A DNA stretch of 64,000 bases from Streptomyces sp. HUAS MG91. Its GTDB lineage: Bacteria > Actinomycetota > Actinomycetes > Streptomycetales > Streptomycetaceae. The notes under the pieces are model-generated. The model worked only from the letters and a program-made list of their open reading frames with translations, was not told the DNA's origin and searched no databases. This document shows, one piece after another, positions 5,204-64,000 of this stretch. Positions within the stretch are counted from its first letter, which is position 1. Each line of letters starts with the position of its first letter. Both the position numbers and the translations under genes were made by a program. The stretch covers positions 434,001 through 498,000 of the forward strand of contig NZ_CP159534.1 of the NCBI RefSeq assembly GCF_040529335.1. Reading direction: 5' to 3'.

Positions 5204-5235
5204 AGAAGCCCCGCCGGCCCGCACCCGGAGACGGG

Positions 5236-6456: not shown

Positions 6457-6477
6457 TCATCCGTCGTGGTGGATCCC

Positions 6478-6490
6478 GAAAGATACTTTC
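6478..6490. promoter_or_regulatory. Candidate operator GAAAG-N3-CTTTC
   Basis: A 13-bp perfect inverted repeat sits between the candidate promoter and the AGGAGG ribosome site (6491-6496) of the serine hydrolase. A related half site (ATCTTTCA) occurs about 25 bp upstream. The position would suit repression of the downstream gene. No candidate regulator is adjacent. Confidence 0.4.
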
Positions 6491-6502
6491 AGGAGGCTGT
6501 TG

Positions 6503-8281: not shown

Positions 8282-8306
8282 CCCGGCACCCGGTTCGCGG
8301 GCGGGG

Positions 8307-9554: not shown

Positions 9555-9631
9555 GGCTCTTGGTAGCACGCCGGTGTCCGGGACGGCCAGGGTGCGCGCT
9601 CCGGCCCGGGCCGTCCGGAAGACGGCACGGT

Positions 9632-11905: not shown

Positions 11906-11958
11906 CGTCCGCCATCGCCCCCGTAGCCTCGCTCCCGCGCCCTCCCCAGGGCAGGGTC

Positions 11959-12828: not shown

Positions 12829-12875
12829 GGGCGCAGGGTACCCGCGGGCGCGCGGCGACGCGCACCACCGGACCA

Positions 12876-14648: not shown

Positions 14649-14745
14649 GAGGATCTCCTTCCGAGCGGGGCGGGTCCGTCCCATCCTGGTGAACGGACCC
14701 GCCCCGCGGGAGGGCGCTGCGACGCAGGGGGCTGAGTACGCGTAC

Positions 14746-15534: not shown

Positions 15535-15537
15535 GGT

Positions 15538-16491
15538 TCAGACTCCCGGGTCGGGTTGGATCGGGTCGGGCCGCTGTCCTCGTACGGCTTCGAGTTGTGC
15601 GGCGAAGGAGAGCCCGAGGAACAGGGCGATCGAGGTGAGGTAGGCCCAGAGCAGCAGGGACATGAACGCGCTGAGCGGGCCGTAGACGGTGTCGAAGGAG
15701 CCGCTGAGGTTCAGGTACATGCTCAGGGCGAAGGTCAGCGCGGACCACAGGACCAGGTAGACGGCCGCGCCGAAGGCCAGCCAGGTGTATCCGGGTTGGA
15801 CGCGTCGCGGAGCGCCTCGGAAGATGACGCTGGCCGAGAGCAGCGCCAGGAGCAGGCCGAGGGGCCAGCGGAGCAGGTTCCAGGCCGTCGAGGCGGTGTC
15901 GCCGAGGTGGTAGACGGTGGCGGCCGCCGCGAAGAGGTCGTCGCCCGCCACCGCCGTCACGAACCCGAGGCCGAGCGGTACGCCCGCGGTCAGCGCCATC
16001 AGCAGGCCGCGGGTGTACTTCTGGGTGAAGGGCCGGTCGCGCTCGCAGCCGTAGATGCGATTGGCGCCGCGTTCCACCTGGCACATGGCCGTGGTGACGT
16101 TGACCAGGGAGAAGATCAGACCGAACCAGAGGGCGAGCTGATTGCCGTCCCCGGCGTGCCGGCGGCTGCGGTCGAGCGCGTCCTCGACGACCTCGGCGCT
16201 GGGGCCCTGGGAGATGCGGTGGATGGCGAGTTCGGCCATCTGTCCGATGCTCTCGGTGTGCACGGCCGTGGACAGTCCGACGAAGGCGATGGACAGGGGG
16301 ACGACCGACAGGACGGTCTGCAGGGCGAGGGCGCGGGAGTGGCTGAACCCGTCGGCGTAGCGGAAGCGCATGAACGCGTCGCGCAGCAGCGGCCAGCGGC
16401 CGTAGCGGCGGAGCGTGGCGAGCGCCTCGTCCCCGGACAGTTCCTCGCCGACCATGTCGCGCGTCGTCGGTACGCGGGTCGCGGTTCCCAC
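15538..16491 (-). CDS. YihY/BrkB-family integral membrane protein
   Basis: This 317-aa polytopic membrane protein belongs to the YihY/virulence factor BrkB family (formerly mis-assigned as RNase BN). It has about six membrane segments, including LALQTVLSVVPLSIAFVGLS, LLMALTAGVPLGLGFVTAVAG and LGLLLALLSASVIF, and the FMSLLLWAYLTSIALFLGLSFAAQLEA C-terminal signature. The start is GTG 16491, one base after the upstream gene's stop, which implies translational coupling. Its role is unproven; the position between two lipid phosphatases suggests an envelope or lipid function. Confidence 0.85.
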   Translation of the reverse strand: MGTATRVPTTRDMVGEELSGDEALATLRRYGRWPLLRDAFMRFRYADGFSHSRALALQTVLSVVPLSIAFVGLSTAVHTESIGQMAELAIHRISQGPSAEVVEDALDRSRRHAGDGNQLALWFGLIFSLVNVTTAMCQVERGANRIYGCERDRPFTQKYTRGLLMALTAGVPLGLGFVTAVAGDDLFAAAATVYHLGDTASTAWNLLRWPLGLLLALLSASVIFRGAPRRVQPGYTWLAFGAAVYLVLWSALTFALSMYLNLSGSFDTVYGPLSAFMSLLLWAYLTSIALFLGLSFAAQLEAVRGQRPDPIQPDPGV

Positions 16492-51643: not shown

Positions 51644-52273
51644 TCAGCCGATCAGTGTCTTCAGCCGCTCGTGGCTGACCTCGGTGCGGGCCACGATCGC
51701 GGGGACGGCGACGCCGGGCAGCAGCAGGCGCCACATGCGGATGGCGCGGTCGCTGAGGTCGTCGCGGCCGCTGGCCACGGCGGAGAACATCTGCATGCCC
51801 GTGCAGGCCTCGGTGACGAACTCGCCCAGTTCGTCCGGGTCCACGCCGGCCTGCAGTTCGTTCGCGTTCTGCGCGTCGCGCAGGCACTCCGCCATGACCT
51901 TCGCCCAGGACTGATAGGGCGTGGCGTCGCGGGTCCCCATGGAGGCCTGCTCGCCCGTCAGCCGTACCGCCGCCCTCAGGAGCGGATCCACCTGGAGCAT
52001 GTGCGACCACAGCAGCGTGATGTCGACCAGCCGCTGGAGTCCTTGCGACTGCAACTGAGGGACGATCAGCTCCGGCTGCGCGTTCATGACCGCGTGCGCG
52101 AGGTCTTCCTTCGAGTCGAAGTGGAAGTACAGCGCTCCCGTGGTCAACCCGGCCCGCTTGAGAATCATGTTGATGCTCGCGCCCGCGTACCCGTACTCGT
52201 CGAAGGCTTCGGCCGCCGCACGGAGGAGGGCCTTGCGCGTCTGCATCGCACGCTCTTGTTTCGGCTCTGCCAC
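51644..52273 (-). CDS. Gamma-butyrolactone receptor (ArpA/ScbR-type TetR regulator)
   Basis: This 209-aa TetR-family protein is of the gamma-butyrolactone receptor group. It has KQERAMQTRKALLRAAAEAFDEYGYAGASINMILKRAGLTTGALYFHFDSKEDLAHAVM (about 5-63), where the GALYFHFxSKE pattern is typical of ArpA and ScbR, and a C-terminal WRLLLPGVAVPAIVA. It would repress its targets until a butyrolactone releases it. GTG 52273 is chosen because it gives the usual MAxxKQxRA start and has GAGAGG upstream; GTG 52285 is an alternative. It is divergent from the AfsA-type gene with two ARE-like sites between. Confidence 0.88.
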   Translation of the reverse strand: MAEPKQERAMQTRKALLRAAAEAFDEYGYAGASINMILKRAGLTTGALYFHFDSKEDLAHAVMNAQPELIVPQLQSQGLQRLVDITLLWSHMLQVDPLLRAAVRLTGEQASMGTRDATPYQSWAKVMAECLRDAQNANELQAGVDPDELGEFVTEACTGMQMFSAVASGRDDLSDRAIRMWRLLLPGVAVPAIVARTEVSHERLKTLIG

Positions 52274-52535: not shown

Positions 52536-53477
52536 ATGCTCAGCACCCTGCCCGACACGTCGACCACGACCGCCGACGACCGGCCCGTATCCGCGGCCGA
52601 GGTGCACAAACTGGACACGACCGAGGTTCTGCTCACCGACTGGCAGCACATCGGCCCCGATCACTTCGGCATCAGCGCACGCTGGCCCGCGCGGCACCGC
52701 TTCTACGCGGAGGCGGCGCACGACCGGCGCGACGCGCTCATGCTCGTCGAGTGCGTGCGCCAGTCGATCCCGATGCTGTGCCACAGCGCCTACGCCACGC
52801 CCTTCGGATTCCGGCAGGCGTGGGAGGATCTGCACTTCGCCGTCGAGCCGTCGGTGCTCGGCAGAACCGGCACCGACCTGGACATACGGCTCGACGTCAG
52901 ATGCTCGGACGTCATACGCCGCGGAACCCGCGTCGGCGGCATGACCATGGACGTGCGGGCGTCGTGGGACGGTCTGCCCGTGGCGACCGTGCGCACCAGG
53001 TTCAACAACCAGTCGCCGGCCGTCCATCAGCGGCTGCGCGGGGCGAAGAGCGACATGGCGGCGGCCCACGCGGCCGCGCTGCCGCCGGGCCGCCCGGTCT
53101 CGCCCGAGCTCGTGGGCCGCAGCCGCGCGGCGGACGTGGTGCTCGCTCCGGCCCCGGAACAGCCTCCGTACACCTGGTTCCTGAGGAACGACCTCGACCA
53201 CCCGATCCTCTTCGACCACCCGGTCGACCACTCCCCCGGCATGCTGCTGCTCGAAGCGGCCCGGCAGGCGGCGCTCGCCCGGTGCCCCCAGACGGCGACG
53301 GTGGTCGGCATGACGACCCGCTTCATCCGCTACGCCGAGTTCGACGTGCCGTGCCTCGTCAGCACCGCGCAACTGCCCGCGCCGGACGGCCGGGACGGGG
53401 CGCAGACGGTCCGGGTCGCGCTGTCGCAGAGCGACCAGGTGGTGTTCACCGCCGACGTGACCACCGCCCGCGTGTAG
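52536..53477 (+). CDS. afsA: AfsA/ScbA-type gamma-butyrolactone biosynthesis protein
   Basis: This 313-aa protein has two hot-dog-like halves characteristic of AfsA. The first is about residues 25-165 (VHKLDTTEVLLTDWQHIGPDHFGISARWPARHRFY, MLVECVRQSIPMLCHSAYATPFGFRQAWEDL). The second is about 190-310 (DLDHPILFDHPVDHSPGMLLLEAARQAAL). AfsA condenses a beta-ketoacyl-ACP with dihydroxyacetone phosphate to start gamma-butyrolactone synthesis. The length matches AfsA (301 aa) and ScbA (314 aa). Paired with the divergent receptor it forms a signalling module beside the 53.5-64 kb operon. Confidence 0.9.
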   Translation: MLSTLPDTSTTTADDRPVSAAEVHKLDTTEVLLTDWQHIGPDHFGISARWPARHRFYAEAAHDRRDALMLVECVRQSIPMLCHSAYATPFGFRQAWEDLHFAVEPSVLGRTGTDLDIRLDVRCSDVIRRGTRVGGMTMDVRASWDGLPVATVRTRFNNQSPAVHQRLRGAKSDMAAAHAAALPPGRPVSPELVGRSRAADVVLAPAPEQPPYTWFLRNDLDHPILFDHPVDHSPGMLLLEAARQAALARCPQTATVVGMTTRFIRYAEFDVPCLVSTAQLPAPDGRDGAQTVRVALSQSDQVVFTADVTTARV

Positions 53478-53540: not shown

Positions 53541-54551
53541 TCATGCGGCCCCGGCCACCGCCGGTGACGGAATCCGCGCCTCCAGGGTTTCGGTGCCGTG
53601 CCACCGGACCTCGTTGACCGCGTCCGGCACCCGGGCGCCGCCGAGGGCGAGGCGTACCGACTCGGCGACCGAGACGCCGGCCCGGTCCTGCGCCTCCCGG
53701 GTGGAGGCACCCAGGTGCGGGGTGCAGACGACCTGCTCCAGCCGGAGCAGCGGCGAGTCCGTGCACGGTTCCTCGGCGAAGACGTCCAGACCGGCCGCCG
53801 CGACCTGTCCCTCCACCAGGGCGTCGTACAGGGCGGCCTCGTCGACGAGGCCGCCGCGCGCGACGTTGACCAGGCGCACGCCCCGCTTGGCTCCGGCCAG
53901 CTCCGGCGCGCCGATGAGGCCGAGCGTCTGCGGCGTACGGGGCAGGTGGACGGTCAGGAAGTCGGCGGCGGCCAGGACCTCGTCCAGCGGGAGCATGCGG
54001 ACACCGAGGCGGGCGGCCCGCGCCGCGTCGACGTAGGGGTCGTAGGCGACGACGTCCATGCCGAAGGCCTTCATCCGCTCGGTGACCAGCGTGCCGATGC
54101 GGCCGAGGCCCAGCACCCCGAGCGTCTTGTGGGCGAGTTCTCCGCCGACGTACCGGGAGCGGTCCCACCGGCCGCCCTTCAGCGCCTGGCCCGCCTGCGG
54201 GATGTTGCGGGCGACCGCGATCAGGAGGCCGCAGGTGAGCTCGGCGGCGCTGACCACGTTGGCGTGCGCCGCGTTGACCACCAGGACTCCGGCCGCGGTG
54301 GCGGCGGGCACGTCGACGTTGTCCAGGCCCACGCCCGCACGCGCGACGACCTTCAACCGGCGTGCGGCGGCGAGTACTTCGGCGTCCACGCGGGTGGCCG
54401 AGCGGATGAGGACGGCGTCGGCGTCCGCGACGGCCGCGAGCAGCGCGCCGCGGTCGGCGCCGTCGCACCGGCGGATCTCGACGTCCGGGCCCAGGGCGGC
54501 CAGGGCGGCCGGGGCGAGTTCTTCGGCGATCAGGACGATGGGCCTGCTCAT
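53541..54551 (-). CDS. Short D-3-phosphoglycerate dehydrogenase-type 2-hydroxyacid dehydrogenase
   Basis: This 336-aa NAD-dependent D-2-hydroxyacid dehydrogenase has ARAGVGLDNVDVPAATAAGVLVVNA, the Rossmann motif TLGVLGLGRIGTLV (about residues 141-154), catalytic Arg in VNVARGGLVDEAAL, Glu in AGLDVFAEEP and His in CTPHLGASTREAQ. This pattern is that of 3-phosphoglycerate dehydrogenase (SerA), but the C-terminal regulatory domains of SerA (about 530 aa) are missing, so it may escape serine feedback. The start ATG overlaps the upstream stop (ATGA). As last gene of the operon it may supply 3-phosphohydroxypyruvate for phosphoserine, the substrate preferred by TrpB2-type enzymes. Confidence 0.88.
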   Translation of the reverse strand: MSRPIVLIAEELAPAALAALGPDVEIRRCDGADRGALLAAVADADAVLIRSATRVDAEVLAAARRLKVVARAGVGLDNVDVPAATAAGVLVVNAAHANVVSAAELTCGLLIAVARNIPQAGQALKGGRWDRSRYVGGELAHKTLGVLGLGRIGTLVTERMKAFGMDVVAYDPYVDAARAARLGVRMLPLDEVLAAADFLTVHLPRTPQTLGLIGAPELAGAKRGVRLVNVARGGLVDEAALYDALVEGQVAAAGLDVFAEEPCTDSPLLRLEQVVCTPHLGASTREAQDRAGVSVAESVRLALGGARVPDAVNEVRWHGTETLEARIPSPAVAGAA

Positions 54552-55480
54552 GGGGAGACTCGTTCCGTGTCGGGTGCGGGCAGATCCCGCAGTGCGGTGA
54601 GGAGTTGGTCGACGGATCGTTCGATCGCGCCCGGGCGGGGGCGGCCGCGGGCGGTGGACTGGGCGGCGAACCGCAGCGCCCGGGGCAGTTCGTCCCAGGC
54701 CGCCGACGCCGCCGCGGCGCGTGCGGGATCGGTGTTCCCGTCCGCCACGTCGAAGGCCAGCTTGAAGGTGTGGTGGCGGGCGGCGGCCCACAGGTCGTCC
54801 ACGTAGCGGGCGACCGCGGTCGGGTCGGCGCGCAGCACCTCGGAGGTGTGGCGCAAGGACGTGTCGAGGTCGAGGACCCAGGTGCCGGTGCCGGGCGCGC
54901 TGCCGCCGCGGTCGGTGGCGGGCGCCCAGTCGAGCCAGCGGTAGTGGTCGGCCGGCGGGAGGGTGGATTCCTCGCCGAGGGCGAGGACGTCACGCCGGGC
55001 GACCTCGCGCGGCGGCCGGGTCCAGGGGGCCAGGGCGGCGGCGAGTTCGGCGTCGTGGATCCAGCCGAGGTACGGGCTCTGCGTGCCGTTCGGGGTCAGT
55101 GCGGAGAAGTGGTCGGCCACCAGCCACTGGTCGTCGCGCCGGTCCTTCAGCAGGATCCAGTGCGGGGCGTCGGCCAGCCCTTGCGCCGGTGACCAGGAGA
55201 GATGGCGGGTGTTGGCCACCGCGAGGACGCGCCGGTCCCGCAGGAGCGCGCGGTGCAGTGCCTCGCGTGCGGTGGGCCAGTCGCGCGTACCGGCGTAGGC
55301 GAGCTGCCTGCCGTCGTGGGTCGTGTCGATCCGGGGATGGTGGGAGAAGGCCAGCTCGCCCTCGGGGAGGTCGATGCGGACGGCGAGCCGGACGCCCCGG
55401 GCGAGACGGCGCCGGACGTCGGGGATGTCGGGGGTGACGTGGGCCAGCAGGTTCGTCGTGTAACAGCTCAGGTCGGGCAT
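54548..55480 (-). CDS. BtrH-like (C39/papain-fold) putative acyltransferase, stand-alone
   Basis: This 310-aa protein has Cys6 in DLSCYTTNLLAHV, His107 in DAPHWILLKDRRDDQW and Asp123 in LVADHF. The Cys-His-Asp order and spacing match the N-terminal domain of the operon protein at 61589 (Cys15, His113, Asp129), including 16 residues between His and Asp and a following DAELAAALAP-like segment. BtrH of butirosin synthesis uses such a fold to move an acyl group from a carrier protein to an amine. The C-terminal 100 residues are helical and unassigned. It lies 17 bp after the phosphopantetheinyl transferase and overlaps the dehydrogenase start. The assignment is by-eye inference. Confidence 0.55.
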   Translation of the reverse strand: MPDLSCYTTNLLAHVTPDIPDVRRRLARGVRLAVRIDLPEGELAFSHHPRIDTTHDGRQLAYAGTRDWPTAREALHRALLRDRRVLAVANTRHLSWSPAQGLADAPHWILLKDRRDDQWLVADHFSALTPNGTQSPYLGWIHDAELAAALAPWTRPPREVARRDVLALGEESTLPPADHYRWLDWAPATDRGGSAPGTGTWVLDLDTSLRHTSEVLRADPTAVARYVDDLWAAARHHTFKLAFDVADGNTDPARAAAASAAWDELPRALRFAAQSTARGRPRPGAIERSVDQLLTALRDLPAPDTERVSP

Positions 55481-55497
55481 GGTGGTCGGGGCGCCGG

Positions 55498-56154
55498 TCA
55501 GGAACACGTGGCCTCCAGGCCGTCGGCGTCGGATGGGGAGTCGGGCAGGGAGAAGGCGCAGCTGAGGGGCGTGCGGGAACGGTCGCGCAGGCTGATCCAC
55601 CGGTATCCGTCCCACCGTCCCTCCCGGCTGCCGGGCGGGACGTCGATCGACCAGGGGCTGCCGGCCAGCCCGGTTCCCGCCGCTTTGACGCAGGCCTCCT
55701 GCGCCGTCCAGACCCACGCCAGTTCGATGCCGCGCCGACGCTCGCCGAGCGGCATGACGTCCGGGGTGTGCCGTCCCAGGCAGCGGCGCAGCAGACTGTC
55801 CGGCACGTCGGTGACGGGCAGTTGGACATCGACGCCCACGCGCCTGCCGCGGCCGACCGCGACGGCGATCGCCGGGCCGTCGTGCGAGACGCTGATGCCG
55901 GTGTCCGGGTCGCCGTCGAGCACGGGCCGCCCGTGCGCGTCGGCCCGTATCGGCGTCGACGCCCGCTCGGGCACGGTGAGGCGCAGCAGATGGCGCAGCA
56001 GGGCGCGTCCCGCGAGGAACTCGGCGGTGCGCCGGCGGGGCAGGGTGGCCGCGACGGCCCGGTCGTCGGGGTCGGCCGCCTGTCGCAGCCACGGTCCCAG
56101 CTGTCCGGTGGCCACCCAGACGTCCGGGGCCGCGCGGGTGATGAGGGTCGTCAT
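55498..56154 (-). CDS. 4'-phosphopantetheinyl transferase (Sfp type)
   Basis: This 218-aa enzyme attaches the phosphopantetheine arm of CoA to carrier proteins. It has ISVSHDGPAIAVAVGRGRRVGVDVQ (about residues 89-113; the GVD Asp binds Mg) and WVWTAQEACVKAAGTGL (about 147-163; Glu and Lys of the WxxxEAxxK motif, with Gln in place of the first Lys). It is clearly the activator of the two carrier domains encoded in the same operon. Its start overlaps the stop of the upstream acyl-CoA dehydrogenase by 4 nt. Confidence 0.9.
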   Translation of the reverse strand: MTTLITRAAPDVWVATGQLGPWLRQAADPDDRAVAATLPRRRTAEFLAGRALLRHLLRLTVPERASTPIRADAHGRPVLDGDPDTGISVSHDGPAIAVAVGRGRRVGVDVQLPVTDVPDSLLRRCLGRHTPDVMPLGERRRGIELAWVWTAQEACVKAAGTGLAGSPWSIDVPPGSREGRWDGYRWISLRDRSRTPLSCAFSLPDSPSDADGLEATCS

Positions 56155-57311
56155 GCCCGCAGCTCCGTCAGCCACGGGTCGGCGTGATCGGCGACGGTGT
56201 CCAGGAGCAGCTCGGTGACGCCGCCGCCGATGCCGAACACGGCCGCCTCGGCGCGGATCCGCTGGGCTCCCTCGCGCGACAGGCCGTCGGCTCCCTGGAG
56301 TTGGGCACAGACGGACAGCACGGGGTCGACGGTCAGGCCGACCGCGGACTTGAGCAGGGCCGCGGCGGCCAGGTCCTGGTGCCGGGTGATCCGCTCGGCG
56401 AGGGTGTCGCACAGCGCGTGCAGCTGGCGGACCTGGACCAGGCAGGTGGCGAACCGCTGGCGCACGGAGCTGTTGTGCCACAGGGGCTGTCCGTCCACGA
56501 CGCGCCGGGTCAGCCGTTCCTTGGTGTCGGCGAGGACGCGGGCCGTCAGGGCGCGGGCCCACAGGGCGCCCGCGAGGCGTTCGGTGCCCATGTGCCGGGC
56601 GAAGGCGGGCATGCCGCGCCCGGGGCGGCCGACGAGCTGCTCGGGCGCGAGCCGAACGTCGGTGAACTCGACGTGTCCGGTGGCGGATCCGGTGAGCAGG
56701 TCGGTGTCGGCGGGGGTGACGCGGACGCCGGGCGCGTCGGCCGGTACGAGGATCCAGGTGAAGCTGGTGAAGTGCCGGCCGGGGCGGTGCCGGGCCAGGA
56801 CGAGGAACCAGCCGGCGGCGCAGGCGGTGGTGATCCAGCGCTTGCCGCCGCGCAGCACGATCTCGTCCGGGCCGATCGTCACCTCCGTGGCCAGACCGGC
56901 GAGGTCCGACCCGGCCCCCGCGCTGTCGGTGGCGGCGAGCGCGAGGGTGCGCGCACCGGAGCGGACGCTGTCCAGCGCTTCTCGCACGGGCCCGCTCGCG
57001 GGGGCACCCGCGGCCAGGATCGGGAGCGCGCTGGCGGCCTGGACCAGGACGCTGAGCGTCACGCCGTTGTCGCCCCGGGCGTCGACGGCCGCGAGCAGTG
57101 CGGCGAGCCGCCGTGGGTCGAGGCCTCCTTCCTCGTCGTAGAGCCCCTCGATCAGGCCCGCCGCGCCGCAGGCCTGCCAGACGAGCGCGGCGGAGGCCGT
57201 CTCGGGCAGACCGGCGACGGCGACGGCCGGGGTCGGGGTGGTCGTGGTCGGCGCCGTAGTGGTCGGCTCCGTCGTGGTCCGCGCGGTCGTGGTCGTCGTC
57301 CCGTCAGTCAA
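56151..57311 (-). CDS. Acyl-CoA/acyl-ACP dehydrogenase-family protein 1
   Basis: This 386-aa member of the acyl-CoA dehydrogenase fold has ATDSAGAGSDLAGLATEVTIGPDEIVLRGGKRWITTACAAGWFLVLAR (about 128-175) as FAD/substrate region and MPAFARHMGTERLAGALWARALTARVLADTKERLTRRVVDGQPLW. The first 30 residues are a Thr/Pro-rich low-complexity run. The start appears to be TTG 57311, overlapping the upstream stop by 8 nt. With a free ACP beside it, the substrate may be carrier-bound, as for aminoacyl- or prolyl-carrier dehydrogenases. The catalytic base was not identified with confidence. Confidence 0.8.
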   Translation of the reverse strand: MTDGTTTTTARTTTEPTTTAPTTTTPTPAVAVAGLPETASAALVWQACGAAGLIEGLYDEEGGLDPRRLAALLAAVDARGDNGVTLSVLVQAASALPILAAGAPASGPVREALDSVRSGARTLALAATDSAGAGSDLAGLATEVTIGPDEIVLRGGKRWITTACAAGWFLVLARHRPGRHFTSFTWILVPADAPGVRVTPADTDLLTGSATGHVEFTDVRLAPEQLVGRPGRGMPAFARHMGTERLAGALWARALTARVLADTKERLTRRVVDGQPLWHNSSVRQRFATCLVQVRQLHALCDTLAERITRHQDLAAAALLKSAVGLTVDPVLSVCAQLQGADGLSREGAQRIRAEAAVFGIGGGVTELLLDTVADHADPWLTELRA

Positions 57312-58503
57312 GGCGCACCTCGGAGTCGAGCAGGGCGAGTTTGCCGTCCACCAGGTGGAGGCGGTCGTTGCTGTAGTTGAGGGCTGCCGAGCGCAGGTCC
57401 CGCAGGCTCTGCTCCAGGCGTGTGGGCGAGTCCTTGAGGTAGCCGTGGCGCATGCCCACGGCGTCCACGAGGTCGTCGACGGCCCGGTAGGACTGCTCAG
57501 CGGCGGTGATCTTCAGTCCGTTCAGGAGCAGTTGGACGCGCGGGACGCTCAGGTCCGGGGCCGCCTCGACGGTCCTGCGGGTCTGTTCGAGCAGCGCGTG
57601 CACAGTGTCGATGCGCTGCCTGGCCCGCGAGAGCCGGGTGAGCAGCAGCTCCGAGTCGAGATCGGCCCGGCCCCGGTTCTTCGGGGAGCGGAGCAATTTG
57701 ACGACACGGGACAGGGCGCCCGCCGCGGTGCCGAGCCAGCAGGCCGACCAGCCCAGGTGGGCCATGGGCGCGAACACCGTGGTGACGATCGTGCGGAAGT
57801 CGCCGTGCTCGCCGATCACGTGGTGCGCGGGGACGGTCCCGGTCAGGCGCAGCGCGACGCTGTGGCTCGACCGCATGCCCAGCGGATCCCAGTCCCCCGA
57901 ACGCTCGGTCTCCAGCTGGTCGCGGTGGGCGTAGACGAGGGAGACGTCCTGCGCGGAGGTGGCGTGCGGGCTCTGCATGGTGACGAGGAACCCGTCGGCG
58001 TGCTCGCCGCCGGTGACGATCGGTGCGAAGCGGTCGACGGCGAGGCCGTCCTGGCCGGCGGTGAGTGCCGACTGCGAGGTGAGGAGGTGGCCGCCCTTGC
58101 CGGACTCGGTGGTGACGGAGGCCAGGTAGTGGCGGCCCGCGGCGATCTCGGGCAGCAACTCGTCGCGCAGTCGGGGGTGGGCGAACCGGACCAGGGCGGC
58201 CACCTGCTGGCAGTGCATGACGAAGATCATCGCCACGGACATGTCGACGCGGCCGAGGGCGGTGCCCGCCCGGATCACGTCGGCGGACGTGCCGCCGAGG
58301 CCGCCGTGCGTGCGGGGCACGAGCAGGCCGAGCAGACCGGTGTCGCGCATCCGGTCGAGCGCCTCCACGGGGAAGGTGGCGTCCCGCTCGTGGCGGGCGA
58401 GGTGTTCGGCGGCGACGGTGGCGACGTCCCGCACGCGGTCGTCGATGCTCGGGGCTTCCGGGGCCGGGGCGTGCGGTTCGAGGAGGACGGCGGGCGCGCT
58501 CAT
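57304..58503 (-). CDS. Acyl-CoA/acyl-ACP dehydrogenase-family protein 2
   Basis: This 399-aa flavoprotein of the acyl-CoA dehydrogenase superfamily has RMRDTGLLGLLVPRTHGGLGGTSADVIRAGTALGRVDMSVAMIF near the start and ASVTTESGKGGHLLTSQSALTAGQDGLAVDRFAPIVTGGEHADGFLVTM as middle domain. Helical C-terminal regions include LGWSACWLGTAAGALSRVVKLL and MRHGYLKDSPTRLEQSLRDLRSAALNYSNDRL. It differs strongly from protein 1, so the two may be partner subunits or act at separate steps. ATG 58503 overlaps the ACP stop (ATGA). Confidence 0.83.
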   Translation of the reverse strand: MSAPAVLLEPHAPAPEAPSIDDRVRDVATVAAEHLARHERDATFPVEALDRMRDTGLLGLLVPRTHGGLGGTSADVIRAGTALGRVDMSVAMIFVMHCQQVAALVRFAHPRLRDELLPEIAAGRHYLASVTTESGKGGHLLTSQSALTAGQDGLAVDRFAPIVTGGEHADGFLVTMQSPHATSAQDVSLVYAHRDQLETERSGDWDPLGMRSSHSVALRLTGTVPAHHVIGEHGDFRTIVTTVFAPMAHLGWSACWLGTAAGALSRVVKLLRSPKNRGRADLDSELLLTRLSRARQRIDTVHALLEQTRRTVEAAPDLSVPRVQLLLNGLKITAAEQSYRAVDDLVDAVGMRHGYLKDSPTRLEQSLRDLRSAALNYSNDRLHLVDGKLALLDSEVRLD

Positions 58504-58772
58504 GCCGCCGCCCGGGAGGCGTCCGCGGGGCCGTTCTGGACGTCGATCGCCGCGGACACGGCCGCCCACAGGCTGCCGGCGGTGGCGAAGGTCGTGTCGT
58601 TCATGGCGTCGTCGGGCAGCGTCACCTCGAACGCGTCCTCGAGGGCGAAGAGCAGCTCGATGGACTGCATGGAGTCCAGGCCGTACGTGCGCAGGGGCGC
58701 GTCGGGCTCGATCTCCTTGCCGTCGAGGAACTTGAGGAAGGGCACGAGCGCGTCGGTGAATCGGGGGTCCAT
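58500..58772 (-). CDS. Free acyl carrier protein
   Basis: This 90-aa carrier protein has the phosphopantetheine site Ser34 in YGLDSMQSIELLFALEDAFEVTLPDD and the usual four-helix pattern. It should be activated by the phosphopantetheinyl transferase downstream and loaded by the AMP ligase upstream. ATG 58772 overlaps the TGA of the decarboxylase by one base, so translation is coupled. The Ala-rich tail (PADASRAAA) is not part of the fold. Confidence 0.92.
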   Translation of the reverse strand: MDPRFTDALVPFLKFLDGKEIEPDAPLRTYGLDSMQSIELLFALEDAFEVTLPDDAMNDTTFATAGSLWAAVSAAIDVQNGPADASRAAA

Positions 58773-60088
58773 CACTTCTCTCCCAGGGTGGGGGCGGTGT
58801 CGGCCGTGACAGGGGTACGGGTCAGGTGGATGCGGGTGAGCTCGGGGGCGCGGTCGGGGTCGTCGCCGTCGACGACGGCCTCGGCCGGCAGTGGGTGGCC
58901 GAGGAAGGCGACGAGGCTCGCGCTGAGGCCGTAGGCGCCGACGTTGGGGACGGCCAGCACGTCGCCGGGGCGCAGGTCGGGCAGCTTCGCCGCTCGTGAC
59001 CAGGTGTCGAGGGGGGTGCACAGCGGTCCGGTGACCAGGGCGTCGAGGACGGCGGGGCGCGGTGCGGCGCCGTCGGCGGGGTCGGCGACGAGCCGGGGGT
59101 TGAGCGGGGGGAGGCGGCGCAGTCCCGGCATGCCGCCGAGGTGGTTGATGCCGGACTCCAGGACGACGACGTCCTTGCCGTGGGACTGCTTCACGTCGAG
59201 GACGGAGGTCAGCAGGACGCCCGCGGTGCCGACCAGATAGCGGCCGGACTCGAAGACGACGCGGGTGCCGTCGTCGTGCCGGGCGGGCAGTTCCTCGTCG
59301 AGCAGCGCGGTCAGCCGGGGGCGCAGTCCGCTGAGGTCGATCCGCTCCCCCGCGCTCGCGAAGGGGGCGCCGAAGCCGCCGCCGAGGTCCAGGACGCGCA
59401 GGTCCGCGCCGTGCTCGGCGAGGGCCGTGCGCAGGATCTTGGCGGTCCGCAGGGACCGTTCGAACTGTCCGAGGAGCGCGTCGGGTTCGGTCAGGTTGGT
59501 GCCCATGTACAGGTGCAGGCCGATCAGTTCGGCGTGCGGGCGGCCGGCGAAGCGGGCCGGTTCGCGCAGCACCCAGCGGGTGTCGGCGCCGAACTGCGAG
59601 GCCACGCCGGTCATCGCCAGGCCCTGGCCGGGGACGGGCTGGTCATCGTTGATCCGCAGCAGGCACTGGGCGCGGACGCCGAGGCTCCCGGCGATGCGGT
59701 CCAGTTGTTCCATGGCGTGCGGGGAGTCCACCGAGAAGTGGCGCACTCCGGCGCGCAGCGCCCGGCCGATCTCCTCGTCGCGTTTGCCGGGCCCGGTGTA
59801 GAGGACGTCGGCGGCGGGCCAGCCCGCGCCGAGGGCGGCCTCCAGTTCGCCGCTGGAGCAGACCTCGGGGCTCGCTCCCTGTTCACGCAGGACGCGCAGG
59901 AGGGACGGGTGGGCGTTGGCCTTGAGGGAGTAGTAGACACCGCTGCCGGCGGGCAGGGCGTCGCTCAGCGCCCGGTGGTTGCGGCGCACTTCGGCCAGGT
60001 CGTAGACGTAGGCGGGGGTGGGGATACGGGACAGCAGGCCCTCGGGCAGCGACAGCTCCGGGGCGGCGGTCTCAGCGGGTGCGGACAC
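58772..60088 (-). CDS. PLP-dependent fold-type III decarboxylase (BtrK/LysA-like)
   Basis: This 438-aa enzyme is of the alanine-racemase-fold decarboxylases. The PLP lysine is Lys56 in VYYSLKANAHP; other features are CSSGELEAAL, VDSPHAMEQLDRI, LHLYMGTN, DLGGGFGAPF, FESGRYLVGTAGVLLTSVLDVK and the intersubunit Cys in GPLCTPLDTW. Diaminopimelate/ornithine decarboxylases share this fold, but its place between an AMP ligase and an ACP matches BtrK, VinO and related enzymes that decarboxylate an aminoacyl group bound to a carrier protein. GTG 60088 overlaps the ligase stop by 17 nt. Carrier-bound decarboxylation is inference. Confidence 0.85.
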   Translation of the reverse strand: MSAPAETAAPELSLPEGLLSRIPTPAYVYDLAEVRRNHRALSDALPAGSGVYYSLKANAHPSLLRVLREQGASPEVCSSGELEAALGAGWPAADVLYTGPGKRDEEIGRALRAGVRHFSVDSPHAMEQLDRIAGSLGVRAQCLLRINDDQPVPGQGLAMTGVASQFGADTRWVLREPARFAGRPHAELIGLHLYMGTNLTEPDALLGQFERSLRTAKILRTALAEHGADLRVLDLGGGFGAPFASAGERIDLSGLRPRLTALLDEELPARHDDGTRVVFESGRYLVGTAGVLLTSVLDVKQSHGKDVVVLESGINHLGGMPGLRRLPPLNPRLVADPADGAAPRPAVLDALVTGPLCTPLDTWSRAAKLPDLRPGDVLAVPNVGAYGLSASLVAFLGHPLPAEAVVDGDDPDRAPELTRIHLTRTPVTADTAPTLGEK

Positions 60089-61589
60089 CGGCGGCCTCCT
60101 CGGTGAGGGCGGCCAGCGCCTTGCGGTCGACCTTGCCGTTGCCGGTCAGCGGGAGCCCGTCGACGGGCACGCAGTGGCCCGGGATCTTGAACTCCTCGAT
60201 CTGCTCGCGCATGCCGCTGAGGACCTCGGCCGGTTCGAGGGCGCTCACGACGAACAGCACGGCGCGGGCGGGGTGCCGGGGAGGCAGGACGGCCGCGGCG
60301 GTGACGCCGGGTACGCGGCGGGCGGCCGCTTCGACCTCGGTGGCGCTGACGCGGAACCCGCTCTCCTTGTAGATGTCGTCGCGGCGTCCGTCGAAGTACA
60401 GGTAGCCCTCCTCGTCGACCCATCCGTAGTCGCCCGTGCGGAGTTGCGGGAAGAGGCCCTCCGCGCGGTGGAAGCGCTGGGCGGTCAGTTCGGGGCGGCG
60501 CCAGTAGCCCGCCATCACGTTGGGCCCCCGTACGACGATCTCGCCGATCTCACCGGGAGCGAGGCGGTGTCCCTCGTCGTCCACGACGAAGACCTCGGTG
60601 CCGGGCAGGGCGCGGCCGCTGGATCCGGGGCGCTCCAGATCGCCGTCGGGCGGCATGATCGTGGCCCGCTTGCACTCGGTCAGTCCGAACATGAGCTGGA
60701 CGTGCAGGCCGGGCAGGGACGCGCGCAGGGACGCGAGGGTCTCGGCGGGCATGGCCGCTCCGGTGTTGGTCAGCAGCCGCAGCGGCGGTGTGCCCTGGGC
60801 GCGGGCGCGGCGCAGCAGGCGGGCCAGCGCCTCGGCGACGGAGGGGACCGCGGCCAGGACGGTCGCGCCGGCGCGGGTCAGGTTGTTCAGGAGCGCGGGC
60901 CCGACCTCGGCGGGGCGGCCGAGCGTGACGTGAGCACCGGCCAGGGTCGACAGGAAGAGTTGGTAGAGGCCGTAGTCGAAGGAGAGCGGGAGCGGGCTGT
61001 AGACGACGTCGGCCGGGCGGTAGCCGAGGACGCGCTGGATGGCGCGGGCGGCGAACGTCAGTTGCTGGTGGGTGCTGACGACGGCCTTGGGCAGCGACGT
61101 CGTACCGGAGGTGTAGATCAGGCACACGGGGTCGACGGCGAGCGGTCCCGGCGGGGTTCCCTGGGGTACGGGGCCGTCGGCGAAGGCCGCGTCCGACAGG
61201 GACGCGGTGCTCTGCGTGCGCACGTCACGGCGGTGCGCCGCCGCGCGGGCCGCGTCGTCGTCGGTGACGAGGAGGGCCGGTTCGCAGTCGTCGAGCACGT
61301 GGTCGAGCTGGACGCCGCGCACCTGTTCGTGGAGCAGGGAGAAGGTGACGCCGACGCGGGAGGCGGCGTACACCAGGGCGGGCTGGGCGACGGAGCCGGG
61401 CGCGCAGACGACGAGCCGGTCACCGCGGTTCAGGCCCTGCTCCAGCAGCCAGGCGGCGAGGCGGCGCGAGGCGGTGTCGAGTTCCCGGTAGGTCAGGGTC
61501 CGGCCGGCGCTGCTGACAGCGGGGGCGTCCGGCCGGGCTGCGACCGCCTCGTCGAGGAGGCCGTGCAGCAGATCGGCGTGGGCGGACAT
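60072..61589 (-). CDS. AMP-dependent acyl/amino acid-ACP ligase
   Basis: This 505-aa stand-alone adenylating enzyme has P-loop LIYTSGTTSLPKAVVSTH (about 162-179), LPLSFDYGLYQLF, MFGLTECKRATIMPP (about 305-319), the TGDYGWVDEEGYLYFDGRRDDIYKESGFRVS hinge and the catalytic Lys in LTGNGKVDRKAL. It probably activates an amino or carboxylic acid and loads it on the ACP or on the ACP domain of the upstream protein. Substrate residues cannot be decoded by eye. ATG 61589 overlaps the upstream TGA by one base. Confidence 0.88.
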   Translation of the reverse strand: MSAHADLLHGLLDEAVAARPDAPAVSSAGRTLTYRELDTASRRLAAWLLEQGLNRGDRLVVCAPGSVAQPALVYAASRVGVTFSLLHEQVRGVQLDHVLDDCEPALLVTDDDAARAAAHRRDVRTQSTASLSDAAFADGPVPQGTPPGPLAVDPVCLIYTSGTTSLPKAVVSTHQQLTFAARAIQRVLGYRPADVVYSPLPLSFDYGLYQLFLSTLAGAHVTLGRPAEVGPALLNNLTRAGATVLAAVPSVAEALARLLRRARAQGTPPLRLLTNTGAAMPAETLASLRASLPGLHVQLMFGLTECKRATIMPPDGDLERPGSSGRALPGTEVFVVDDEGHRLAPGEIGEIVVRGPNVMAGYWRRPELTAQRFHRAEGLFPQLRTGDYGWVDEEGYLYFDGRRDDIYKESGFRVSATEVEAAARRVPGVTAAAVLPPRHPARAVLFVVSALEPAEVLSGMREQIEEFKIPGHCVPVDGLPLTGNGKVDRKALAALTEEAAGVRTR

Positions 61590-62779
61590 CAGTTCCCTCC
61601 GGAGGTGGTGACGAGGGCGGGCGACGGCTGCGGTGCGGCGTGCAGGGCGCTGAGGACGATGCGGCCGACGCCGTCGAGGTGGTGGAGGTTCTCCGGGACC
61701 AGGTCGTCGGCGGCGCACTCGACGGACAGGTCCTGTTCGAGGCGTTCGACGATCTCGACGACGCGGAACGAGGTGAACCCGGCCAGATCCGCCAGGGACT
61801 GGGCGCCGCGCACCGTGGCGACGTCGACACCGAGCACCGCGGCGACGGTGTCGGCCACCCGGTCGAGCAGGGGGCCGGGCACCTCGGCGGGGCCGCTGTC
61901 CCGCTGGGCCGGCGCGGTCGCCGTGGTGGCGGCGAACACCTCGCGGTCGCGCCGGAGTTGGGTGCGCAGACGGTCGAACACGCCGGTCGGCTCCGGGCGG
62001 CCGCGGGCCACCCTGCGGTGGCCGACGTAGACGCTCTCGGCGAGGGCGTCCCACGCGGCGACATGCGCCTCTCGCACCGGGTCGGCCGGGCCGGACGGAC
62101 CGTCGAGGAAGCGGGCGTGCAGCCTGCGGGAGCGGGCGAGCAGCCAGGTCTCCAGGGTGAGCCGGTCGAAGGCGGCGGCGCGGTCGGGGTGTTCGGCGTA
62201 CGCGGCCGCGTAGGCGTCGACGGTGTCGTCGTCGGCGAGGTCGATCACGGCTGCGGGCGGGGCGGTGCGGCGGGCGGCGGGCGCGAAGGTGACCGTGGTC
62301 GCGGCCTCCGGTACGGCGGCGGCGAGTTCGGCGGGGGTCAGGTGGCGGGTGAGGGGGCGGGCGCTCCCCCAGGGTGTCTCGTTGTGGTAGCCGTCGACGA
62401 CGACGGCGCCGCCGTTGTCGTCCGTTTCCAGCAGGAAGCTGTGTTCCATGTGGCGGTGCCCGGCGTAGGGCACCCACGGCAGGTGGAAGGCGTCGGCGAC
62501 GACGTAGCGGCCGGGGGCGGGCACCGGCGTCCGGCCCGGACCGGTCCGCTCCCGCGCGACGATGTCCAGGCCCAACAGAGGTGCGGCGGACGTCAGTTGC
62601 TCTTCGACGGTGCGCTCGACCGTGGGCAGGCCGGCGGCGCCCGGTGCGGGCCGGAAGCGCAGTTCGGCGCCGAGGCCGAGGTGGGTGTGCGCGCCGTGCC
62701 AGCGGTCGGCGAGGATCGCCAGGTTGACCTGGACGCAGTCGAAGAGCCGGCAGTCGGTGGTGAGCGTCGGGTCAGTCAT
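61589..62779 (-). CDS. BtrH-like acyltransferase fused to a carrier-protein domain
   Basis: This 396-aa protein has an N-terminal domain (about 1-140) with Cys15 in RLFDCVQVNLAIL, His113 in GHRHMEHSFLLE and Asp129 in VVVDGYHNETPWG. That is the Cys-His-Asp set and sequence style of the BtrH N-terminal (C39/papain-like) family. A helical middle part follows, then a C-terminal carrier domain (about 300-375: LLDRVADTVAAVLGVDVATVRG, GFTSFRVVEIVERLEQDL) whose phosphopantetheine Ser is likely Ser337 in TSF instead of the usual DSL. The fusion suggests direct transfer between carrier and acceptor. It overlaps the TrpB2 stop by 8 nt. Confidence 0.7.
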   Translation of the reverse strand: MTDPTLTTDCRLFDCVQVNLAILADRWHGAHTHLGLGAELRFRPAPGAAGLPTVERTVEEQLTSAAPLLGLDIVARERTGPGRTPVPAPGRYVVADAFHLPWVPYAGHRHMEHSFLLETDDNGGAVVVDGYHNETPWGSARPLTRHLTPAELAAAVPEAATTVTFAPAARRTAPPAAVIDLADDDTVDAYAAAYAEHPDRAAAFDRLTLETWLLARSRRLHARFLDGPSGPADPVREAHVAAWDALAESVYVGHRRVARGRPEPTGVFDRLRTQLRRDREVFAATTATAPAQRDSGPAEVPGPLLDRVADTVAAVLGVDVATVRGAQSLADLAGFTSFRVVEIVERLEQDLSVECAADDLVPENLHHLDGVGRIVLSALHAAPQPSPALVTTSGGN

Positions 62780-64000
62780 GGTGCGCTCCGGCTCCGACGG
62801 GCTCCTGAGCCGTCTGCAGCCCGCTCATGGCGCGGCGCAGTTCCTCGGGGTCGGGGGCGACGTCGCTCAGTTCGCCGTCCATGAGCTGCTGGTAGGCGCC
62901 CAGGTCCAGATAGCCGTGGCCGCTGACGCACACGACGACGCCCCGCTCGGAGCGCAGCAGGCCGCTGTTGGCGTCGGCGCCCGCCGAGGCCAGCCGGGCG
63001 GCGGCGGCCAGGGCGTGCCCGGACTCCGGGGCGGGCAGCACCATCTCGCTGCGCGTGAACAGGCGTCCGGCGTCGAGCGCGTCGACCTGGCCGATGGCCG
63101 TCGCGGCGATCTGGTCGCGGTGCCGCATCGCCGAGAGGACCTTCGCGGCACCGTGGAAGCGCAGGCCCGCGGAGTGCGAGTCGGGTATCGGGTAGGAGCT
63201 GCCGATGGTGTACATGGCCTCCATCGGGCCGGTGCCGGTCGCGTCGGTGCGGTCGTACGCGTACGTGCCGCGGGTCAGCTTGGGCGTGGTGCTGGACTCG
63301 GCGGCCAGCAGCAAGGGGGCGCGGGTGCCGGTCGCGGCGGCCTCGGCGAAGAACGGCAGGGCGATGCCGCCGAAGTTGGAGCCGGCTCCGACGCAGCCGA
63401 CGACGGCGTCGACCTCGGCGTCGAGTGCGGCGAGCTGGTCGGCGGCCTCAAGGCCGATGACCGACTGGTGCAGGATGCTGTAGGTCTCCCCGCTGCCGAT
63501 GCAGAACGCGGCGCCGTCGGTCTTCGCGGCGTACTCGACGGCCTCGCCGATGGCGAGGGAGAGGCTGTTGACGCCTGCCCTGCTCTGCGCGGCGACCTCG
63601 GTCAGTGGGCTGGGGCTGGCGTGCACGGTCGCGCCGAGGGTGCGCATGAGCGTGCCCCGGTAGGGCTTGCGGCGCAGGCTGTTGCCGACCATGAAGACGG
63701 TGCACTTCATGCCGAACATGGCGCAGGCCGCGGCGAGCGCGGTGCCCCACTGCCCGGCGCCGGTGCCGCTGACGAGTTCCCGCACGCCGGCCTTGGCGTA
63801 GTAATAGGCCTGCGCCAGCGCGGTGTTCAGCTTGTGGCTGCCGGAGATGTTGCCGCCCTCGTACTTGACGTAGATCGGCACGCGCGCTCCGACGGCGCGC
63901 TCGAAGCGCTCGGCCCGCCACAGCGGCGTGGGCCTGAAGGCGCGGTACGCCTCGACGATCTCGGCCGGGATGTCCCAGTGCTCCTTCTGCAGGACGCTCT
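62772..64000 (-). CDS. TrpB2-type tryptophan synthase beta-like enzyme, 5' end cut by window edge
   Basis: This PLP enzyme of the TrpB2 (TrpB-like) subfamily begins beyond the window; the reading frame is open to the right edge. Visible features are DIPAEIVEAYRAFRPTPLWRAERFERAVG, VKYEGGNISGSHKLNTALAQAYYYAKAGV with the PLP Lys, TGAGQWGTALAAACAMFG, SLAIGEAVEYAAKTDGAAFCIGS, HQSVIGLEAADQL, VVGCVGAGSNFGG, GTYAYDRTDATGTGPMEAMYTIG and SGHGYLDLGAYQQLMDG. TrpB2 enzymes make tryptophan or analogues from indole and serine, and an archaeal member has been reported to prefer O-phosphoserine. In this operon it likely makes or modifies the amino acid building block. GTG 63881 is not a good start because upstream family residues continue. 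Confidence 0.85.
   Translation of the reverse strand, partial: SVLQKEHWDIPAEIVEAYRAFRPTPLWRAERFERAVGARVPIYVKYEGGNISGSHKLNTALAQAYYYAKAGVRELVSGTGAGQWGTALAAACAMFGMKCTVFMVGNSLRRKPYRGTLMRTLGATVHASPSPLTEVAAQSRAGVNSLSLAIGEAVEYAAKTDGAAFCIGSGETYSILHQSVIGLEAADQLAALDAEVDAVVGCVGAGSNFGGIALPFFAEAAATGTRAPLLLAAESSTTPKLTRGTYAYDRTDATGTGPMEAMYTIGSSYPIPDSHSAGLRFHGAAKVLSAMRHRDQIAATAIGQVDALDAGRLFTRSEMVLPAPESGHALAAAARLASAGADANSGLLRSERGVVVCVSGHGYLDLGAYQQLMDGELSDVAPDPEELRRAMSGLQTAQEPVGAGAHHD

Follow-up and report, generated by a model that had tools for sequence, protein, structure and literature searches.

A γ-butyrolactone-linked Streptomyces operon for the apparent assembly of an unusual small peptide from carrier-held amino acids, aspartate among them

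What does an operon make that combines a TrpB2-like enzyme with free carrier proteins and two ACAD-fold flavoproteins? We analysed the window, a 64 000-nucleotide stretch of a Streptomyces genome (G000:C1:434001–498000), and carried its numbering past position 64000 into the adjoining sequence (extended coordinates). What the 17-gene, antibiotic-type operon appears to make is an unusual small peptide, with aspartate and further amino acids held on carrier proteins as its building blocks. Our main reading, with a probability of roughly 0.5, is a γ-butyrolactone-linked cluster with a small non-ribosomal peptide-like product that would be assembled on free carrier proteins in a five-step scheme. 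The features are summarized in Table 1.

Each of the ten minus-strand genes of 53541–64000 listed by the first-pass annotation is a long open frame with codon use typical of Streptomyces, and the families that it named have HMM support except for two proteins labelled 'BtrH-like'. The 17 nt gap that it reported is an overlap of that length between the decarboxylase and ligase genes; all nine junctions overlap (by 4, 10, 4, 8, 4, 4, 17, 1 and 8 nt) and no gap was found. The unit does run past the right edge of the window, as had been proposed, and in the extended sequence comprises 17 minus-strand genes (53541–72184), with overlaps at 13 of 16 junctions and gaps of 56, 6 and 229 nt at the others. 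The arrangement is consistent with a single, transcription-like unit. Beyond TrpB2 the run encodes ACP2, ProA, SDR, TE, a C-A-T NRPS, ACP3 and an MFS exporter; the earlier remark that no multidomain NRPS is in view holds inside the window but not beyond it, where the C-A-T and C-T-TE proteins lie. The TetR regulator is 68–96% identical to homologues in G059, G107 and G110, and the CDS at the matching place on the G107 plasmid is annotated as ScbR family. The phosphopantetheinyl transferase scores below the cut-off for Pfam ACPS (24.6 versus 25 bits).

Table 1. Features of the cluster and its flanks, in window numbering (extended coordinates beyond 64000)
Feature	Position	Strand	Length (aa)	Basis
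TetR regulator, ScbR-like	51644..52246	-	200	TetR_N by Pfam
AfsA/ScbA-type γ-butyrolactone biosynthesis protein	52536..53477	+	313	NF041195, 295 bits (cut-off 200)
SerA, short D-3-phosphoglycerate dehydrogenase-like	53541..54551	-	336	TIGR01327, 421 bits (below cut-off 454)
C39b, stand-alone C39/BtrH-like with Cys-His-Asp	54548..55507	-	319	Residues; BtrH_N E 0.29
4'-Phosphopantetheinyl transferase (PPTase)	55498..56154	-	218	Pfam 4PPT_N, 28.6 bits (cut-off 27)
ACADa, RedW/PigA-like acyl-ACP dehydrogenase with Glu244	56151..57311	-		Top NCBIfam match ProlPCPDhRedW, far below cut-off
ACADb, ACAD-fold flavoprotein lacking the catalytic Glu, candidate flavin-dependent N-oxygenase	57304..58503	-		PDB sequence match TdsC
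ACP1	58500..58775	-	91	PP-binding
DC, fold-type III PLP decarboxylase, BtrK-like	58772..60088	-	438	Closest PDB chains BtrK, E 1.6e-54
LIG, VinN-type AMP ligase	60072..61589	-	505	3wvn, E 2.3e-119
C39-ACP fusion	61589..62779	-	396	Predicted fold
TrpB2-like PLP enzyme	62772..64000 (ends 64136, outside window)	-	454	NF009057, 511 bits (cut-off 366)
ACP2, ProA, SDR, TE, ACP3, MFS		-		
C-A-T NRPS	67226-70378	-	1050	
C-T-TE protein	72934-75237		767	
A enzyme	75532-77076	+		
Flavin reductase	78298-78843	+		

Gene content and order are kept in relatives, which makes the arrangement more than a coincidence. The recurring actinobacterial core, found in Streptomyces, Amycolatopsis, Saccharopolyspora, Micromonospora and Salinispora, consists of the ligase, the BtrK-like decarboxylase, an ACP, two ACAD-fold flavoproteins, a PPTase, two C39-type proteins and an A enzyme, often with a flavin reductase; a literature search found no product for this cluster family. 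The 54 stretches compared include two duplicate pairs (L064=G059 and L071=G125), two contigs of one genome (L070/L083) and two loci of another (L078/L088), and several end at contig ends, so that absences are lower bounds. Loci carry best-match labels, the 43 'A' loci including some with other adenylation proteins only, and counts refer to called genes; tblastn finds a LIG match in L095 and L105, where the gene was not called. Families F9, F19, F21, F22, F28–F34 and F40–F47, where annotated, were annotated from one member each.

The ligase–ACP–decarboxylase logic of butirosin and vicenistatin that had been suggested for the locus agrees with the closest solved relatives, BtrK for DC and 3wvn/3wv4, which we take to be VinN, for LIG. 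LIG residues D205, T276, K307 and R308 align with VinN D230, S299, K330 and R331. The pocket pair D205 and R308 is present in 38 of 39 rows, as is Thr276, a similar residue in place of the VinN Ser299. The odd row out stems from L084, where taking the first labelled LIG gene per locus brought in a different ligase; the L084 copy proper carries the motif. Methylaspartate mutase genes occur in 5/54 loci, and all four of these with an aligned LIG show VinN-like motifs (SWDYGxxK and YGQTEAKR), the remaining rows except L094 having SFD.G.YQ/GLTECKR. Among 15 loci with no called ligase, seven have the KamA-like family F19. The PLP lysine (Lys56) and Cys357 of the GPLCTP motif are invariant in DC (39/39 each), as is Ser35 in ACP1 (50/50). 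LIG would activate the side-chain carboxyl of L-aspartate and load ACP1, and DC would remove the α-carboxyl of Asp-S-ACP1 to give β-alanyl-S-ACP1. By analogy with homologues tested elsewhere this route is highly probable, with precedents from vicenistatin, from AfcQ/AfcP of AFC-BC11 in vitro (PMC12186527) and from the bolN deletion in bolagladin biosynthesis (PMC7756342).

The two ACAD-fold flavoproteins differ at the catalytic Glu. Glu244 of ACADa occupies the MCAD 255 position in 47/47 copies, with Gly at the 376 position, whereas ACADb has Ala248 and Asn376 (49/49) and Glu at neither. The top NCBIfam match of ACADb is the FadE16 ACAD family and its top PDB sequence match is TdsC (2e-16), followed by an ACAD (2e-15); Foldseek places TdsC/DszC at ranks 1–5 and KijD3 at rank 21, and oxygenase and ACAD folds tie in VIA-align score. 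Chalkophomycin biosynthesis, in the available part of its description, has an N-oxygenase/dehydrogenase ACAD pair, one Glu-less and one Glu-bearing, that acts on an ACP-bound amino acid (ChmG/ChmH; PMC11177257), and by this analogy N-oxidation plus desaturation is favoured here. ACADb, together with the cluster flavin reductase, would oxygenate the ACP-bound amine and ACADa would then dehydrogenate it, a division of labour to which we give even odds. The resulting N-hydroxy-enamine or oxime thioester could close to an isoxazolin-5-one. TAN-950 is an isoxazolinone amino acid; a literature search for it gave nothing relevant, and a TAN-950-like isoxazolinone amino acid is a possible outcome. The enteromycin class was considered and rejected, since its combination of NRPS/PKS, diiron oxygenase and methyltransferase (PMC9967187), as given in the part of the source available, was not seen among the annotated genes here.

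Alternatively, β-alanyl-ACP1 might be N-acylated by a C39 protein and then desaturated by the ACADs, to a dehydro-β-alanine as in bolagladin and without N-oxidation. Bolagladin has the same ligase–ACP–decarboxylase–ACAD set, as does AFC-BC11, and its bolQ deletion yields a β-alanine analogue (PMC7756342, available text); dehydro-β-alanine also occurs in Streptomyces, in the olenamidonins/autucedines, and the FadE16 match of ACADb fits a dehydrogenase. We nevertheless consider this route rather unlikely: no copy of ACADb has Glu at either position, its closest solved sequence, by one order of magnitude, is that of a monooxygenase, a flavin reductase family is present in 31/54 loci and bolagladin is described, in the text available, with a single ACAD.

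The label 'BtrH-like' and the proposed role of Cys acyltransferase fared differently for the two C39-type proteins. No Pfam family other than that of the ACP part exceeds its cut-off in either, so that BtrH_N membership was rejected for both (C39b, 11.8 bits versus 29.7 required; C39-ACP, no match at 0.001). The C39-ACP model has a C39/papain-like predicted fold with Cys and His, resembling CcbD, CtaG and AziU3, of which CcbD and CtaG are amide synthases; BtrH was not among the VIA-align rows for this model. C39b is assigned from its residues (His 40/40, Asp 40/40 and Cys 35/40, with four gaps and one Arg). For CcbD, the accessible text describes carrier-protein-dependent amide formation with catalytic Cys and His (PMC12945683). 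C39-ACP and C39b would likewise form amide bonds through a Cys thioester, with an acyl or aminoacyl group provided by the A enzyme; we regard this as fairly probable.

The most surprising part of the cluster is its odd type of TrpB2, the gene of which adjoins a carrier-protein gene in the genomes examined. The protein falls below the TIGR01415 cut-off (409 versus 519 bits) and retains the PLP lysine (Lys102) in 28/28 cluster copies. The equivalent of Glu109, the catalytic Glu of TrpB, is Gly124 in all 28, which also have an acid at Glu217. ProA, glutamate-5-semialdehyde dehydrogenase-like in scoring above the PRK00197 cut-off (348/289) though below that of TIGR00407 (301.5/317.45), accompanies 27 of 28 TrpB2 loci and no locus without TrpB2. 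SerA matches only the first 312 of 525 TIGR01327 positions and is labelled in 7/54 loci; TrpB2 is in view at six, and the contig of the remaining one (L070) comes from the genome that also holds a TrpB2 fragment (L083). A scan of viral_contigs with TrpB2 gave zero relatives.

An ACP gene lies near TrpB2 in 26/26 Gly124 loci surveyed (24 distinct) and in 0/77 Glu/Asp124 loci. The first set held 66 loci (26 Gly124 and 40 Glu/Asp124), of which 63 are distinct (24 Gly, 38 Glu and one Asp). The added set held 39 loci (all 15 genus matches that the first set lacked and 24 of many phylum matches) plus L134; 37 are Glu/Asp124 loci without ACP, L207 repeating L115, two have Ser (L214) or Ala (L134) at this position and no ACP nearby, and the residue of L219 is unreadable. 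The genus list is complete (E 1e-60, 392 genomes), with an ACP in all 22 Gly124 loci and in none of 23 others; the phylum list was sampled. The ACPs of the cluster family itself served to build the ACP profile, and the independent part of the comparison is the 12 distinct Gly124 loci outside it. A rooted tree did not show a single Gly124 clade; with the root set aside, all Glu/Asp124 copies group together. The presence of an ACP beside the Gly type but not the Glu/Asp type points to an undescribed, carrier-dependent type of TrpB2, which would join the β-carbon of serine or O-phosphoserine, with help from SerA, to a nucleophile on ACP2, the thioester then being reduced by ProA and SDR. This step is tentative, at slightly less than even odds.

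An ACP near a Gly124-type TrpB2 fits either partner being carried, and in an alternative reading the substrate of TrpB2 would be serine, or a different amino acid, tethered to ACP2, the enzyme working as a dehydratase or by β-replacement. This is improbable, in that every Gly124 copy examined retains the TGAGQ loop, by which TrpB holds the free α-carboxylate. Seven other neighbourhoods moreover have the gene order TrpB2–ACAD–A, with A-enzyme codes resembling what we take to be the proline code (PltF/RedM type); the group on the carrier would therefore be a nucleophile there, a pyrrole or pyrroline. The first-pass view of TrpB2 and SerA as plain suppliers of tryptophan or serine draws on their family names, and a SerA homologue could feed O-phosphoserine. 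It is very unlikely to be the whole explanation, judging from the sequence: the catalytic Glu is replaced in every cluster copy, and TrpB-like (34% identical) and ProA-like (36%) genes lie elsewhere in the genome.

In our main reading the C-A-T NRPS would incorporate a single unusual amino acid, which may come from the TrpB2/ProA/SDR step, and ACP3, C-T-TE and TE would complete the chain. The C-A-T pocket code DVQYCSLAV, derived from motif anchors and our own alignments, is shared without change by 19 of 20 labelled rows; the other row belongs to a different NRPS. A vicenistatin-like β-amino acid starter for a polyketide macrolactam, to which the VinN-like ligase and a KS-AT-ACP protein in six relative loci (F21, one member scanned) would lend themselves, is most improbable given that no PKS gene is present among the annotated genes of the cluster and of the NBC_00704 relative.

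TrpB is a leading biocatalyst for noncanonical amino acids, and to our knowledge work on it has used free, small nucleophiles. If there is a natural TrpB2 type to which a carrier protein delivers the nucleophile, it would be a new route to C–C-linked amino acids. Somewhat speculatively, this class may couple serine or O-phosphoserine to an ACP-held electron-rich acyl group (such as an enamine, isoxazolinone or pyrrole formed by an ACAD); combined here with an Asp-derived, N-oxidised β-alanyl-ACP line, the product may contain an N–O bond together with a proline-like amino acid of a new kind for the DVQYCSLAV module. The cluster family, which recurs across actinobacterial genera, may stand for a wide range of natural products that are as yet unread.

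The butirosin AHBA pathway (BtrH–K, O and V) shares a ligase, an ACP, an ACP-dependent decarboxylase, an acyltransferase and a flavin oxygenase with its reductase; it is glutamate-derived, uses a different oxygenase family and delivers its side chain to an aminoglycoside. The earlier claim that no described pathway combines the ligase–ACP–decarboxylase logic with TrpB2, two ACADs and a C39-ACP fusion was overstated, as ligase, ACP, decarboxylase and ACAD occur together in bolagladin and AFC-BC11 (PMC7756342, PMC12186527) and an ACAD pair in chalkophomycin; a literature search did not find all of these elements joined to TrpB2, ProA and C39-ACP. Bolagladin (bolO/C/N/Q) and AFC-BC11 (afcQ/K/P/E), the Burkholderia dehydro-β-alanine assemblies, share the VinN-type Asp ligase, free ACP, BtrK-type decarboxylase and ACAD, but the available text describes one ACAD and acyl transfer by KAS III or a fatty acyl-AMP ligase, and does not mention C39-ACP, TrpB2 or ProA. 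The chalkophomycin N-hydroxypyrrole genes (ChmG/ChmH with ChmI, ChmJ and ChmF) share the ACAD pair, likened by description; they act on proline, which a prolyl A enzyme loads, and the part of the account available mentions no decarboxylase, C39 or TrpB2. Vicenistatin VinN/VinL/VinO/VinM likewise make a β-amino acid on a free ACP, from (methyl)aspartate (PMC11284099), but feed a type I PKS, with no mention of an ACAD or C39 protein in the text available. CcbD/LmbD (lincosamide) and CtaG (closthioamide) share the C39-like fold, catalytic Cys and His and carrier-dependent amide formation (CcbD: PMC12945683); C39-ACP differs in its own fused ACP and in having Asp as third residue, where the accessible text gives Glu for CcbD/LmbD. 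Finally, the TrpB2 of this cluster matches the NF009057 family over nearly its full length and shares its PLP lysine and TGAGQW loop, but differs in the Gly at the Glu109 equivalent, the acid at 217 and the nearby ACP gene.

Gene calling on the window together with 46 kb on its right, in a host genome of 8.6 Mb on two contigs, delineates a minus-strand run of 17 genes. Within this run, 13 of the 16 junctions overlap, with gaps of 6, 56 and 229 nt at the others. The run, its flanking genes and two further gene sets, the second of them from other genomes, are listed in the table; the names LysR and CGNR reflect our own reading and annotated homologues. The second small gene set lies directly to the right of the cluster, and its PPTase and thioesterase are 90–92% identical in genome G059.

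Gene run, flanks and further gene sets (extended coordinates continue past the right end of the window)
Feature	Position	Strand	Genes
17-gene run	53541–72184 (extended)	minus	In the direction of transcription: MFS exporter, ACP3, NRPS C-A-T, thioesterase, SDR, ProA, ACP2, TrpB2, C39-ACP, LIG (AMP ligase), DC (PLP decarboxylase), ACP1, ACADb, ACADa, PPTase, C39b, short SerA
Left flank			AfsA and ScbR-like genes
Right flank			CGNR regulator, C-T-TE protein, A enzyme (g071), LysR regulator, flavin reductase (g073)
Second small gene set	80121–86306 (extended); 10121–16306 (locus L010)		AvrD-family protein, ACP, SDR, AMP ligase, HAD hydrolase, another PPTase, thioesterase
Conserved cluster of L201 (likewise in L200, L202 and L203)	1314–16487 (L201)		Prolyl-type A-ACP-TrpB2-PigA-like ACAD set; in L201 also polyprenyl-synthase-like protein, terpene-synthase-like protein, SbnA-like PLP enzyme, aldehyde dehydrogenase

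In the genus, 42 of 392 genomes had a C39-ACP match when weak ones were counted, and a large database yielded 282 proteins; in named genomes the search gave 42 loci from Streptomyces, Amycolatopsis, Saccharothrix, Saccharopolyspora, Micromonospora, Salinispora and others. Across 54 neighbourhoods, two duplicate pairs included, a core block comprises ACP1 (50), C39-ACP (49), ACADb (49), ACADa (47), PPTase (44), the A enzyme (43), C39b (40), LIG (39), DC (39) and the flavin reductase family (31). A second block is formed by TrpB2 (28) and ProA (27), every ProA locus having TrpB2, usually in the company of ACP2 (28), SDR (23), thioesterase (19), C-A-T (19) and ACP3 (17). In the 26 loci without TrpB2, the second-block genes are rare (ACP2 in four, thioesterase in two, SDR and C-A-T in one each, ACP3 and ProA in none). 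One contig carrying this otherwise actinobacterial cluster is labelled Burkholderia multivorans WS-FJ9 (L086; protein identity 46–76%), a label that is likely to reflect contamination or mislabelling. In L088, L096 and L100 the core adjoins deoxysugar, glycosyltransferase, KAS III-like and methylaspartate mutase genes, and these loci probably represent a glycosylated relative with a methylated β-amino acid. In L087, L090, L091 and L093 (L092 partly), a core without ligase and decarboxylase adjoins a KamA-like aminomutase, a GntC/capreomycidine synthase-like PLP enzyme, an ATP-grasp protein and a carbamoyltransferase.

The first step of the proposed pathway would be the conversion of aspartate into β-alanyl-ACP1 by LIG and DC. 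The nearest solved relative of LIG is 3wvn (E = 2.3e-119), which we take to be VinN, and that of DC is BtrK. The LIG pocket residues Asp205, Thr276 and Arg308 are kept in 38 of 39 rows. In VinN, Asp230, Ser299 and Arg331 are described as binding the amino and carboxyl groups (PMC7756342). Natural variation supplies a control on this reading of the ligase: methylaspartate mutase genes occur in five loci, and all four ligases called there have VinN-like motifs; ligase rows lacking the mutase show an alternative motif, L094 excepted. For AFC-BC11, AfcQ is reported to activate L-Asp in vitro, and AfcP to use the carrier-bound form (PMC12186527). Among the 15 loci without a called ligase, seven contain a KamA-like aminomutase family member, two have a tblastn match to LIG, one is itself a fragment, and the other five have neither. 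The core thus often, though not provably always, seems to start from a β-aminoacyl-ACP1.

The second step would involve the two ACAD-fold flavoproteins. In ACADa, Glu244 occupies the place that Glu255 has in the human MCAD T255E/E376G mutant (47/47 copies); in ACADb, the two possible catalytic-Glu positions hold Ala248 and Asn376 (49/49 copies). Among solved proteins, ACADb matches the FMN monooxygenase TdsC best by sequence (2e-16), an ACAD following closely (2e-15), and its top NCBIfam match is the FadE16 ACAD family. Foldseek searches with the AlphaFold model (pLDDT 87.4) place TdsC/DszC at ranks 1–5, ACADs from rank 6 and KijD3 at rank 21; VIA-align of the same model did not separate oxygenases from dehydrogenases. 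The flavin reductase of the cluster hits HsaB/FerA-type reductases from two-component oxygenases, scoring below their cut-offs. Single linkage puts its copies in one family, within which that of the window genome is 95% identical to the copy of G059 and only 30% to that of G060. In chalkophomycin biosynthesis, prolyl-ACP is the substrate of two ACAD-like proteins; ChmG oxygenates the nitrogen first, and the Glu is retained in ChmH alone (PMC11177257). We take the ChmG/ChmH pair as the model for ACADb/ACADa. The case for ACADb as a putative N-oxygenase comes from its absent catalytic residues, a slim advantage for oxygenases in two of the searches and the genes around it. We therefore favour N-oxidation of β-alanyl-ACP1 followed by dehydrogenation. 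Chemistry past dehydrogenation might include an isoxazolin-5-one.

The C-A-T pocket, DVQYCSLAV, is identical in 19 of the 20 rows so labelled, counting one duplicate pair; the remaining row belongs to a different NRPS. It has DVQ(Y) in common with proline codes, which makes a proline-like amino acid a plausible substrate. ProA and the SDR, or the aldo-keto reductase family present in three Amycolatopsis loci, could act on an ACP2 thioester, reducing it to an alcohol or allowing its cyclisation.

The TrpB stretch ETGAGQ reads GTGAGQ in all 28 cluster TrpB2 copies, placing Gly124 at the position of the TrpB catalytic Glu109, and Glu217 is invariant in the same 28. Elsewhere in the host genome there are a TrpB-like gene (34% identical) and a ProA-like gene (36%). 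The TrpB2 survey drew on 61 relatives together with 396 phylum and 392 genus genomes; it took the best 20–30 loci per source and then the remaining genus list with 24 more of the phylum list. In 26/26 Gly124 loci (24 distinct), position 217 is acidic and an ACP gene lies no more than about 1.5 kb away; an ACP gene is near 0/77 Glu124/Asp124 loci (40 and 37 by stage, some repeats). The association is a statistical one among related genomes. In the genus list, complete at E = 1e-60, an ACP lies near 22/22 Gly124 loci versus 0/23 others. Two proteins with Glu217, one with Ala124 (L134, G405) and one with Ser124 (L214, G311), have no ACP in view, L134 beginning at a contig end; they are possible relatives of the Gly124 type. 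In G311 a C39-ACP match lies about 5 kb from the TrpB2-like gene. A TrpB1-rooted tree divides the Gly124 type into two groups (support 0.70) and keeps all of its Glu/Asp124 copies together.

Half of the distinct Gly124 loci (12 of 24) lie outside this cluster family. Seven of these neighbourhoods (L133, L195, L196 and L200–L203) have the gene order TrpB2-ACAD-A, and five of them have an ACP gene called directly upstream. Gene calling missed the ACP of L195 and L196, although an ACP profile matches it in loci L177 and L178, which come from the same genomes. Among these ACADs, NCBIfam was run on that of L201 alone, which belongs to the PigA/RedW prolyl-carrier type (E = 1e-117 and 2e-113, below curated cut-offs). 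The A codes DLLYSALVC, DLLYAALVC and DLFYLALVC resemble the proline code. In these neighbourhoods the carrier protein would hold a pyrrole or pyrroline, an indole-like nucleophile. Such a load is the best clue that TrpB2 receives its nucleophile on the carrier, with free serine or phosphoserine as the second substrate. In another Gly124 context (L132 and L197–L199), TrpB2 adjoins a 630-aa protein and an AMP ligase; in L132 the 630-aa protein has an FAD/NAD-binding domain, and AsnB-like, AurF-like and ATP-grasp-like proteins are also present.

We found no description of the Gly124 type of TrpB2 in the open-access literature searched. Parts of the cluster logic are already known from bolagladin, AFC-BC11, autucedine-type lipopeptides and chalkophomycin, and the cluster as a whole thus varies known carrier-protein chemistry.
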